A DNA stretch of 32,413 nucleotides, from the NCBI GenBank assembly GCA_021463145.1, contig JAJTWZ010000006.1, positions 81,485 through 113,897 on the forward strand, written 5' to 3'. This stretch comes from Blastocatellia bacterium. GTDB taxonomy: Bacteria > Acidobacteriota > Blastocatellia > UBA7656 > JADIYM01. Below, in pieces: positions 2,099-5,800 of this stretch (within the stretch, counting starts at the first letter, position 1; each line of letters begins with the position of its first letter). The translations under genes and the position numbers were made by a program. A model generated the notes under the pieces. The model had not been told where the DNA came from, made no database searches, and saw nothing but the letters and a program-made list of their open reading frames with translations.

Positions 2099-2911
2099 AT
2101 GCCGTTGATCGAGACCTCGACTGGAACACTGTCGTGGGAGCAGCACGGCGACGGCCCGCCGGTGGTTTTCGTCAGCGGTTGGGCTATGTCGCGGACTTGC
2201 TGGGCGCTTGTCGTGGAGCGGCTGTCGAAGCGATTCCGGTGCATAACCTACGATCCTCGCGGGATTGGGCGGTCGTTGCTGTATCCGTCGGCTACTTGCG
2301 AGCTCGACGATCACGCGGAGGATCTGATGTCGGTGTGCGAAGCGGCCGGCGCGTTCGACGCACACGTCGTCGGCCACGAACTGGGCGGGCGTGTTGCGGC
2401 CATCGCCGTTCGGCAGCATCCCCAGATTGCGCAGACGGTCACGATCGTCGGATGGTGGGGAGCGGCCCGAATCGAGGAGGCCACCGGCGAACTGGCGAAG
2501 ATTCGGCAGGCCGCGAGTCTGCTTCTGCAGGACTTGGGCTCGTTTCCGGTGCTGAGGAATCTCGTGGCGTGGAGCTATCGGCGGGCTCCTGAGCCCTACC
2601 GCACCAGACTGTTCGACGAGTACTCTCAGATGGACGCCCGTGTTGCGTACACGACCGCCGCGGCGGCTTCCGATCCGGCAGCCGCTGTGGCGTTCGACGA
2701 CGCTGTCGCGCGTCTTGCGATGCCTGTACTGCTCGTTCAGGGCGGCGACGATCGCGAAGCTGCGCGAGAGGGGTTGCGCGCTCTGTTCCGCAGGCTCGAA
2801 CATGTCGATCTCGCGACGATTCACGGATCGGGGCCGCTTCCAATGCTCGAGCATCCGCAGGCATTCGCGAGAACGCTTTCACAGTTCATTCTCGAACACG
2901 GAGCACGATGA
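2099..2911 (+). CDS. Alpha/beta-hydrolase-fold protein, probably catalytically inactive
   Basis: 270 residues with a clear alpha/beta hydrolase layout. There is a strand-turn PPVVFVSGWAMS (oxyanion region), the YDPRGIGRS loop, a nucleophile elbow around residue 94, a cap of roughly residues 125-195, and the PVLLVQGGDD strand that carries the acid residue. The nucleophile elbow reads G-H-E-L-G, so the expected Ser (or Asp in dehalogenases and epoxide hydrolases) is Glu94. The C-terminal segment reads GSGPLPMLEHP where GxGHxPxxExP is expected, so the catalytic His is Pro246. Two of three triad positions are therefore lost while the fold motifs are kept, which suggests a binding or scaffold role rather than decay. 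The frame extends far upstream, but only as antisense of mogA/hslO; ATG 2099 is the sensible start. It overlaps the next gene by 4 bp (ATGA). Confidence 0.85.
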   Translation: MPLIETSTGTLSWEQHGDGPPVVFVSGWAMSRTCWALVVERLSKRFRCITYDPRGIGRSLLYPSATCELDDHAEDLMSVCEAAGAFDAHVVGHELGGRVAAIAVRQHPQIAQTVTIVGWWGAARIEEATGELAKIRQAASLLLQDLGSFPVLRNLVAWSYRRAPEPYRTRLFDEYSQMDARVAYTTAAAASDPAAAVAFDDAVARLAMPVLLVQGGDDREAAREGLRALFRRLEHVDLATIHGSGPLPMLEHPQAFARTLSQFILEHGAR

Positions 2912-3375
2912 CGTTTCTGAAGCGCATTGCGGAACGCGTGGGACCGGCGGAGCTGAGCTGGTTCGTAATGCTGACCGCGATTCTGGTTACAAGCGTGTTG
3001 TGGCATCCGGCCGACGACGGGGGCTTCATCGTCTGCGCGCTTCGGCGGACGACGGGGCTTCCGTGCCCCGGCTGCGGGCTGACGAGGAGCTTTTGCGCGC
3101 TTGCCAAGGGAAACGTCGAACGGGCCGGGCAATTCCACGCGCTTGGGCCGGCGTTGTTCACGTTGACGGCGATTTACTGGATGCGAAGCGTGGCGCTGAT
3201 TGCGGGGTTCCGCGAGGCCGTGTCGAGGTACGACGCCGGTATGTTCCGCTGGAAGATTCCGCACGTGTTCGGGATTGTGTTCGTCTTGGCGTGGATGGTG
3301 AAGATCGGCGTGATGTTGTGGACTGGCGAGTTCCATCGCCTGGCGGCCAGCGGAATACTCGCGCACTGGTTTTGA
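2908..3375 (+). CDS. DUF2752 family membrane protein
   Basis: 155 residues with the DUF2752 signature CPGCGLTR (about residues 53-60), which follows a first hydrophobic helix (WFVMLTAILVTSVLW) and precedes an FCALAKGN segment. Two further hydrophobic segments follow (ALFTLTAIYW and FGIVFVLAWMVKIGVMLW), so this is a small inner-membrane protein. The paired cysteines suggest metal or redox chemistry, but the family has no settled function as far as I know. The start codon overlaps the stop of the dead hydrolase (ATGA), so the pair is translationally coupled and may work together. No third gene follows in the operon. Confidence 0.85.
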   Translation: MTFLKRIAERVGPAELSWFVMLTAILVTSVLWHPADDGGFIVCALRRTTGLPCPGCGLTRSFCALAKGNVERAGQFHALGPALFTLTAIYWMRSVALIAGFREAVSRYDAGMFRWKIPHVFGIVFVLAWMVKIGVMLWTGEFHRLAASGILAHWF

Positions 3376-3928: not shown

Positions 3929-5800
3929 CTATCTTAACCCGCCGTCGTCGCCGCCGTCGTCACCGCCGTCGTCGCCGCCGTCATCGCCGCCGTCGTCGCC
4001 GCCGTCGTCGCCGCCGTCGTCGCCGCCGTCGTCACCGCCGTCGTCACCGCCGTCGTCACCGCCGTCGTCACCGCCGTCGTCGGCATCCGCATCGTCAGAG
4101 ACGCCGTCGCCATCGTCGTCCGTGTCGGCTTCATCGGGAGTGCCGTCGCCGTCGTCGTCGGAATCCGCCTCATCGGGCGTGCCATCGTCATCCGAGTCTT
4201 CGCCCATGTCGTTGTTGTCGTCCTCGTCGGCCGAGTCTGGCGTTCCGTCGCCGTCATCGTCCGTATCCGAGGCGTCAGGGGTCCCGTCACCGTCGTCGTC
4301 GGTGTCCTTGTCGTCCGGCGTGCCGTCGCCGTCGTTGTCGTGGTCGGCGTCGTCGCCGTCATCGACCCCGTCGTTGTCGTCGTCGGCATCGGCATCGTCG
4401 TCGATACCGTCGCCATCGTCGTCATCGTCTCTGGCATCCGGCGTGCCGTCGTTGTCGTCGTCGGCATCCTTGTCGTCCGCGGTGCCGTCGTTGTCGTTGT
4501 CGCGGTCGCCGTCCTTCGCGTCGTCGACGCCGTCGCCGTCGTCGTCCATGTCGACGGTGTCATCCACGCCGTCGTTGTCGTCGTCGTCGTCGATGGCGTC
4601 CTCGACCCCGTCGTCGTCCGCGTCGGTCTCGAGACTGTCGATGACACCGTCATCGTCGTCATCGAGATCCTTCGCGTCGTCGATACCGTCCCCGTCGTCG
4701 TCGGTATCCGACGAATCCATCACGCCATCGTCGTCGTGATCGAGGTAGGCCAGGTCGTCGTCACCCATCACTTCGTCGAACTCGTCCGAACTCACCTCGA
4801 GCGACAATTCGTCGGTGTAGCTGTCGAATGCCGAGATCTCGGCTTCGGAAATGTCGACGTCGTAGGCATCGACGGTCTCGAAGGAAGCGGTGTCGTAACT
4901 GGCCCAATACTCTTCGGAGGAGTATTCCCAGGATGTCTCGACCGTGGTTTCCACGTACGAGGCCACTTCGGCGAACGAGGCGTTAGCGGTCGAGAAACTG
5001 GCATACGATGCCGAGTCGTAAACCAGCGCATATGACGAGATGCCGTAGTACGTGCCCACGAAATAGTCCTCGTAGGCCACGAGCTCGTAGTAGTAGTCAA
5101 CGGTCCACGTAGTCGGGGAGAGGAGCCGCGAGACCGAATCGATCAGCGCGGTCACTTCGGCGATTTTCGAAGGAGACTTGCCGAACTTTCCCTTTCCAGC
5201 CCTGTCCCGCGTCGTTCGAAGCTGGGTGGCCGCGGCCTGGTACTTCGCCTTCAGAGCATTGGCCTGCGCCGTTTCTTTATCCGTGAGCGGGCCACCCTTC
5301 TTGCGGCGCAATCCTGCCTTGCTGAAGTTCTTTCTGTATGCGTTGTAAGCGACGTCCAGTTTCTTGATGCCGTCGTCGATCTTCGCATTTTTCAGCCCCG
5401 TCAAGCGCCAGGCCGACTTCATCGAACTGATCGATTTTCCAGTGCGGCCAAAGGCCTTTTCGGCGGCCTTGTCCTTCTTGGCGGCGCTGGCTTTCGCGAG
5501 CGCCTTGATGTTTGCGTTCGTCTTCTTCAGAGCGGCGAAGAACGGCTGCTGGTCCTTCGACTTCGGGTTCACGGGCGCCGGGCTCGCGTCCTTGGCGGCC
5601 TTGCCGATGAATGCAGTCGCTTTCCGCATTGCCGCCACGAGGTCCTTACCGGACGCCTTTCCGGCGGCCGACGCGGTCGGAGTGACGAGCGAAAATGCGA
5701 CGAAGAAGACGCTAAAGGCGCCAAGGAGCGCCCGGGCTGGCCTCTGCGAGCGACCTGGAACTGAAGAGCCAACTGAAAGCTGTGGGCGGGGGGTAGTCAT
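3929..5800 (-). CDS. Secreted Asp-rich thrombospondin type-3 repeat protein with C-terminal GDDG tandem repeat
   Basis: 623 residues. A long basic N-region leads into a hydrophobic core (LLGAFSVFFVAFSLVTP) and an A-x-A site (ASA/AG near residue 46), so the protein is exported. Residues about 47-215 are a Lys/Ala-rich helical domain. Residues about 220-340 are rich in Tyr, Ser and Glu with many aromatic pairs and no recognised domain. Residues about 350-575 are a run of D-x-D-x-D-G-x-x-D type-3 repeats that bind calcium in related proteins. The last 50 residues are DDGG units encoded by twelve 12-bp repeats, ending in LR. No sorting tag or outer-membrane barrel is seen. The start at 5800 has a good ribosome site (AGGAGA, 6 bp spacing). 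The extreme acidity suggests calcium-dependent surface or matrix binding; this is inference. Confidence 0.85.
   Translation of the reverse strand: MTTPRPQLSVGSSVPGRSQRPARALLGAFSVFFVAFSLVTPTASAAGKASGKDLVAAMRKATAFIGKAAKDASPAPVNPKSKDQQPFFAALKKTNANIKALAKASAAKKDKAAEKAFGRTGKSISSMKSAWRLTGLKNAKIDDGIKKLDVAYNAYRKNFSKAGLRRKKGGPLTDKETAQANALKAKYQAAATQLRTTRDRAGKGKFGKSPSKIAEVTALIDSVSRLLSPTTWTVDYYYELVAYEDYFVGTYYGISSYALVYDSASYASFSTANASFAEVASYVETTVETSWEYSSEEYWASYDTASFETVDAYDVDISEAEISAFDSYTDELSLEVSSDEFDEVMGDDDLAYLDHDDDGVMDSSDTDDDGDGIDDAKDLDDDDDGVIDSLETDADDDGVEDAIDDDDDNDGVDDTVDMDDDGDGVDDAKDGDRDNDNDGTADDKDADDDNDGTPDARDDDDDGDGIDDDADADDDNDGVDDGDDADHDNDGDGTPDDKDTDDDGDGTPDASDTDDDGDGTPDSADEDDNNDMGEDSDDDGTPDEADSDDDGDGTPDEADTDDDGDGVSDDADADDGGDDGGDDGGDDGGDDGGDDGGDDGGDDGGDDGGDDGGDDGGDDGGLR
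3939..4082. repeat. 12 tandem copies of a 12-bp unit (codes DDGG repeats)
   Basis: Twelve contiguous units of CCGCCGTCGTCR on the plus strand; 11 differ only at the last base, and one has an extra G-to-A change. It is in frame with the minus-strand gene and encodes the acidic Asp-Gly tail. The near identity of units at the DNA level, including synonymous positions, points to recent slippage expansion, so copy number probably varies between strains. Confidence 0.9.
4083..4745. repeat. Degenerate thrombospondin type-3 repeat coding region
   Basis: Imperfect in-frame repeats of GTCGTCGTC-rich DNA that encode successive D-x-D-x-D-G-x-x-D motifs of the 3929-5800 protein. Units vary at both protein and DNA level, unlike the adjacent exact 12-bp array, so this is the older repeat. 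Boundaries are approximate. The repeats create long false frames on the plus strand and in the other minus frames. Confidence 0.8.

Follow-up and report, generated by a model that had tools for sequence, protein, structure and literature searches.

A Blastocatellia family of alpha/beta-hydrolase-fold proteins without a catalytic nucleophile

Why would a bacterium keep a protein of the alpha/beta-hydrolase fold in which two of the three catalytic residues are replaced? The question is raised by a gene in a stretch of 32,413 nucleotides from a Blastocatellia bacterium (contig JAJTWZ010000006.1), which as a whole is called the window here. An earlier note on this DNA had read a Glu in the nucleophile elbow and a Pro at the position of the catalytic His. 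It had taken the product for a maintained pseudoenzyme and had described the gene as coupled to that of a DUF2752 membrane protein. The frame opens with the ATG at 2099 on the plus strand and ends with the stop at 2909-2911, giving a product of 270 residues. The elbow codons GGC CAC GAA CTG GGC encode G-H-E-L-G and the His loop reads GSGPLPMLEHP; both replacements are confirmed from the codons. The features are as follows, with counts that refer to the 28 family members introduced below:

2099..2911, plus strand: hydrolase-fold gene, 270 residues, of the nucleophile-less family (translation, Pfam, AF2, VIA-align)
2174..2176, plus strand: Ser26 of the oxyanion loop, where SG replaces the typical 'HG'; most relatives have Asn
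2378..2380, plus strand: Glu94 (GAA) in the nucleophile elbow; six of the 28 members, each from the window's order, have Glu
2750..2752, plus strand: Asp218 (GAT), the retained acid after strand beta7; Asp in 28 of 28
2834..2836, plus strand: Pro246 (CCG), which replaces the catalytic His; of the 28, the window alone has Pro, 5 have Phe and 22 His
2908..3375, plus strand: DUF2752 membrane protein gene (Pfam PF10825, 3.1e-15), sharing 4 bases with the hydrolase gene

The fold motifs and the full length are preserved, as had been claimed. Abhydrolase_6 matches with E=4.3e-17 and 63.9 bits against a cut-off of 26.3, and Abhydrolase_1 (E=9.1e-17) is also above its cut-off. An AF2 model from a 26-row alignment has a pLDDT of 89.4 and a pTM of 0.90. 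In it residue 94 is the one-residue turn that joins strand 88-93 to helix 95-106, so the elbow is intact; the cap blocks in 121-150 are less certain (mean pLDDT 58-69). VIA-align places the model on the esterase 3hi4 of Pseudomonas fluorescens with Z 31.4 and an rmsd of 2.1 over 254 aligned residues. Profile, model and Z score together put the protein in the alpha/beta-hydrolase fold superfamily. What it does not have is the triad of a catalytic hydrolase, a Ser, Cys or Asp nucleophile with a His and an acid (parts of PMC7034887 treat its geometry in this fold); the three residues are Glu94, Pro246 and Asp218. The best NCBIfam match, the 3-oxoadipate enol-lactonase PcaD (TIGR02427), reaches 90.1 bits, below its curated cut-off of 255.85. 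Among the matches listed, the BPO-A2/aryl-esterase group (P. fluorescens esterase 1va4/3hi4, TtEst2 4uhc) shares the fold and the arrangement of the cap across 254-260 residues with Z 30-31, and its profile matches range from 7e-22 to 1e-25. These are catalytic serine hydrolases, whereas the family described here has lost the nucleophile, and its members in the window's order the His as well. Judged from its sequence, and with high confidence, the window protein is not an ordinary serine hydrolase.

Is this a peculiarity of one gene? A search with the window protein of 39 genomes, its own and those of relatives, gave strong matches of 121-226 bits in 19 other genomes, after which the scores drop to 88 bits. 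A profile built from 17 members was then run on 162 Blastocatellia genomes at a threshold of E<=1e-40, and it found 28 members in seven taxonomic families with 272-401 bits. Among the cleaner genomes 22 of 101 carry a member; 134 of the 162 have no match at this threshold, including G006 and G007 of f2, a family of the window's order (the window itself belongs to f1). Across 396 genomes drawn evenly from the phylum, the single new match at E<=1e-35 had 126 bits and an intact GHS...GH (L063), which leaves a gap to the family at 272 bits or more. The elbow residue of the 28 members is Gly in 17, Glu in six and Ala in five, and in none of them Ser, Cys or Asp. At the His position 22 have His, five Phe and one, the window protein, Pro. 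The family has also changed the oxyanion-loop 'HG': position 26 is Ser or Asn in all 28. Close relatives with an intact Ser-Asp-His triad, which could have refuted the pseudoenzyme reading, were sought and amounted to none of the 28 members. Orthologues with the same two replacements were found for the one residue only: Glu94 is present in all six members from the window's order, but position 246 is Phe in the other five.

Two controls show what is usual in this fold. Of twenty further matches of the fold, drawn from the genomes of the window and its relatives, 18 have Ser in the elbow, one Asp and one Gly. The elbow is visible in 73 of 75 distant matches in named genomes and is Ser in 63, Cys in five, Asp in four, Gly in one and Glu in none. 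The pattern used for this second search admitted only F, H or P at the His position and did not include the elbow, so the His seen in 69 of 69 outsiders is a biased count. Against both elbow controls, the Glu of the window gene is not there by chance. The top-scoring intact relative is a protein from Chloroheliaceae (L073, 143 bits) with FNGW, GHSLG and GHLPMLE. Five distant relatives (L139, L071, L101, L108 and L128) all combine a Cys elbow, GNCMG, with a GHLPMLE His loop. The window genome has a second hydrolase-fold protein (L177, G000:C103:43860-44603) in an open frame of 488 residues; its elbow, GHGLG, contains Gly, and it retains Asp and His. In G004 a further hydrolase-fold gene (L022:839-1663, minus strand) is located some 5 kb away from the family gene.

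The order of the changes was read from a tree of 43 rows, 28 from the family and 15 from outside, in which the trait columns were included and the outgroup branches are long. The sampled taxonomic families were recovered as clades, except f9 with its one member, which fits vertical descent. The Glu clade, the window and five f2 genomes, has a support of 99/97; the node that unites the whole family, at 90/76, is not firm. At a minimum, this tree requires four elbow changes, of which one accounts for the Asp in a pair of outgroup rows, and two changes at the His position. Glu gain and His loss each fall on one branch, so any link between them is putative. By codon arithmetic, Glu (GAA/GAG) is one base away from Gly (GGA/GGG) and at least two changes away from the Ser codons. 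The simplest history would be that Ser gave way to Gly once, that Gly became Ala in a single genus, and that in the window's order Gly was exchanged for Glu and the His was lost as well. As far as such comparisons reach, this is an old, vertically inherited Blastocatellia family, in which the loss of the nucleophile is old, stepwise and family-wide. That two residues are replaced thus holds for the window protein, although not as a joint event there, since the nucleophile was gone class-wide before the His.

Two missing canonical residues, and a gene without a match in so many genomes of the class, two of its own order included, could also be the marks of a dispensable copy from which the residues have drifted away. 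This is the least credible of the readings considered here. An internal stop, a single TAG, occurs only in the G044 match and in none of the other 27 members, and the identical elbow residue is present in six members across two families. dN/dS is about 0.03-0.25 across pairs of relatives with dS below 2.1: 0.03-0.11 in f4, f5 and f8, 0.13-0.21 in f7 and 0.16-0.25 in the Glu-type pairs L003/L004 and L006/L007. In all pairs that involve the window dS is saturated, and the values for selection come from the relatives; of the dN/dS comparison proposed in the earlier note, purifying selection in relatives was obtained and a value for the window branch was not, because its synonymous sites are saturated. 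When the window was compared with five sisters, using three outgroups, fifteen Tajima tests gave p values of 0.08-0.90 and no acceleration, and the window branch in a 10-genome tree, 1.25, is about as long as the total path of the sisters. Against a lone decayed pseudogene, which we reject, stand the 27 further members, the purifying selection and the rate tests. Both marks of a hydrolase-fold pseudoenzyme, conserved loss of residues and purifying selection, are present, the latter measured in relatives. The idea of a maintained pseudoenzyme, or at least of a non-hydrolase, is supported by the lack of an intact triad in all 28 members, the constraint on the relatives and the unaccelerated window lineage.

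Conservation in the Glu clade points to further sites. While residue 246 varies between Phe and Pro, Glu94 is kept in 6/6. Positions near-specific to this clade are E14, S26, M30, A157, F172 and T186, and P108-Q109 and the stretch P248-x-L250-E251 are conserved besides. A cap stretch at about 149-182 has a mean entropy of 1.44, compared with 2.2 in the cap parts on either side, and is a candidate contact surface.

A maintained protein may still be an enzyme. By analogy with other members of the fold, non-hydrolytic His-Asp chemistry in the 22 His-type members would be the main rival explanation: ancestral members with a Gly or Ala elbow would use His-Asp as general base, like cofactor-free dioxygenases or dyad carboxy-lyases, and the window's order would have lost the base and become inactive or changed its chemistry. 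It is a possibility that we hold only tentatively. The 22 members do keep His and Asp beside a Gly or Ala elbow. In the dioxygenases HOD and AqdC, as described in parts of PMC10548524, the elbow Ser is dispensable, naturally Ala in AqdC, and only the His-Asp pair is required; D/E-H dyad enzymes without serine appear in sections of the 2024 survey (PMC11878206). The oxyanion-loop residue W28 is nearly invariant in the family, and Trp36 in the corresponding loop of HOD holds the ligand (PMC10548524, in part). However, the acid of HOD is D126, before the cap (same part of PMC10548524), whereas Asp218 here follows beta7; the His is missing throughout the window's order, so the window protein has no His-Asp dyad; and the neighbouring genes, which outside f1, f2 and f8 vary by family, suggest no pathway. 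HOD was absent among the 60 profile matches and the 50 structure matches listed.

Could Glu94 itself be catalytic in the window's order, as a general base or as a nucleophile like the Asp of dehalogenases, with Asp218 as its partner? Its invariance in the clade, its gain on the branch on which His was lost and the retention of Asp218 would fit. In dehalogenases and epoxide hydrolases with an Asp nucleophile, however, a His is required to release the ester, and the only invariant His residues of the Glu clade are H72, H93 and H107, with none in the beta8 loop. A Glu elbow is also absent from section 2.7 of the 2024 survey (PMC11878206), as it is from the 73 distant matches, and we consider a catalytic Glu94 improbable. 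Slightly less improbable, though still unlikely, is a stepwise rebuilding of the active site, in which Ser was replaced by Gly while His-Asp acted as base, Glu was later gained and His given up, and Glu94-Asp218 would be a new centre, either catalytic or charge-sensing, that resembles none of the listed triads. Alternatively, a shifted triad might be completed by another Ser of the protein, such as Ser26 or Ser31, which would make it an unusual active hydrolase. S26, S31 and S59 are indeed invariant in the Glu clade, but S59 is equally so in ordinary relatives and, judged by conservation, no His is placed to serve these residues; an active hydrolase of this kind is very improbable.

The reading that we prefer, with a probability of about 0.5, is that of a protein maintained as a non-hydrolase, which probably binds a ligand or a partner and whose pocket would now serve non-covalent binding in place of catalysis. 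A point against it is again the His-Asp pair kept in 22 of 28 members, which suffices for chemistry elsewhere in the fold (parts of PMC10548524). That a pocket of this fold can hold a ligand without its Ser is indicated by 4g8b, by its title the S102G mutant of AidH with a lactone. Nucleophile-less members with other duties are known. The S9B pseudo-peptidases DPP10 and DPP6, as described in parts of PMC4350108, have Gly (DPP10) or Asp (DPP6) in place of the catalytic Ser and modulate Kv4 channels. They resemble what is proposed here, a Ser-less hydrolase domain acting on a membrane protein, although the partner is a putative one in our case; and DPP10 retains His and Asp and has a beta-propeller and a membrane anchor of its own, whereas the protein from Blastocatellia is small and consists of one domain. 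CGI-58 (Q8WTS1), like the window protein without a catalytic Ser, is a lipase cofactor according to passages of PMC11878206; the likeness is one of description, and CGI-58 is human and also reported to be an acyltransferase. Neuroligins and thyroglobulin are named as non-catalytic members of the fold in parts of PMC5943944. RsbQ and the D14/DLK2 signalling hydrolases have the same single-domain fold (Z 28.7-28.9), used there together with a signalling partner. RsbQ depends on its intact triad S96-D219-H247, as stated in parts of PMC3183031, and is therefore a structural and not a functional match; the window protein has no S-D-H triad, and no PAS-domain gene adjoins it among the neighbouring window genes. 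A family of this kind already described was not found in the open-licence PMC literature, only such analogues.

If the protein serves a partner, the next gene deserves attention. The junction with the DUF2752 gene that had been noted as coupled is confirmed: the stop of the hydrolase gene overlaps the start ATG in an ATGA. DUF2752 lies downstream on the same strand in all ten members of f1 and f2, from the window's order, and of a third family, f8, and immediately so in nine, at spacings, counted from the first start codon, of -4 (window and G002), +8 (G003 and G044), +27 (G004), +34 (G033), +55 (G043), +88 (G001) and +102 bases (G005), which gives a range of -4 to +102. In the tenth genome, G029, it follows at +2612 with one ORF between. 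Both trees in the comparison of this linkage part f8 from the window and f2. Of the other 18 members, 17 have DUF2752 on a different contig or at a distance above 80 kb, and in G045 it was not found. The domain occurs in 145 of the 162 genomes of the class. G007 has it without a family gene, as does G006, where DUF2752 keeps the neighbours known from f2 relatives and the profile detected no hydrolase remnant over 7.6 kb of the locus. An obligate partnership is weakened by this near-universal occurrence and by the persistence of DUF2752 without a family gene in these two genomes. Since the link is absent in the other 18 members and DUF2752 persists alone in G006 and G007, it is one kept in part of the tree and not obligate. 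At sampled loci of other Blastocatellia (L143-L168) the DUF2752 genes adjoin TM2/zinc-ribbon genes, in L146 also a CD225 gene. Literature on DUF2752 was not found among open-licence PMC papers.

The remaining neighbours were considered as a guide to a common pathway, and this was rejected: outside f1, f2 and f8 they vary by family, and no function can therefore be deduced from them. In f7 they are an M28 peptidase, an isocitrate-type dehydrogenase, DUF4177, a sigma-54 regulator and a beta-eliminating lyase; a neighbour in f4 is presumably a homoserine-kinase-like gene. In the window the neighbouring genes match HSP33, MoCF_biosynth and DUF2752 in Pfam, the next gene being without a match. At 3929-5800 on the minus strand a 623-residue protein without a Pfam match has Asp-rich repeats, which we take to be thrombospondin-3-like, and a C-terminal run of GGDD repeats.

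For the ligand-binding or partner protein that we favour, the pocket of an ancestral hydrolase fold would have ceased to be catalytic and taken up non-covalent binding instead. Glu94 in the elbow and the nearby Asp218 would make this pocket acidic in the window's order and allow it to hold a small ligand; the protein would then relay the occupancy of the pocket to a partner or serve as the partner's chaperone or regulator. The best candidate for this partner would be the DUF2752 membrane protein.

Annotation would label genes of this family as hydrolases, given their matches to general alpha/beta-hydrolase models. The non-catalytic members of the fold that we found described in the literature are mostly from animals. 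Here is a class-wide bacterial family with intermediates, first Gly or Ala with His and then Glu without His, in which the order of the losses and the reuse of the pocket are directly testable.
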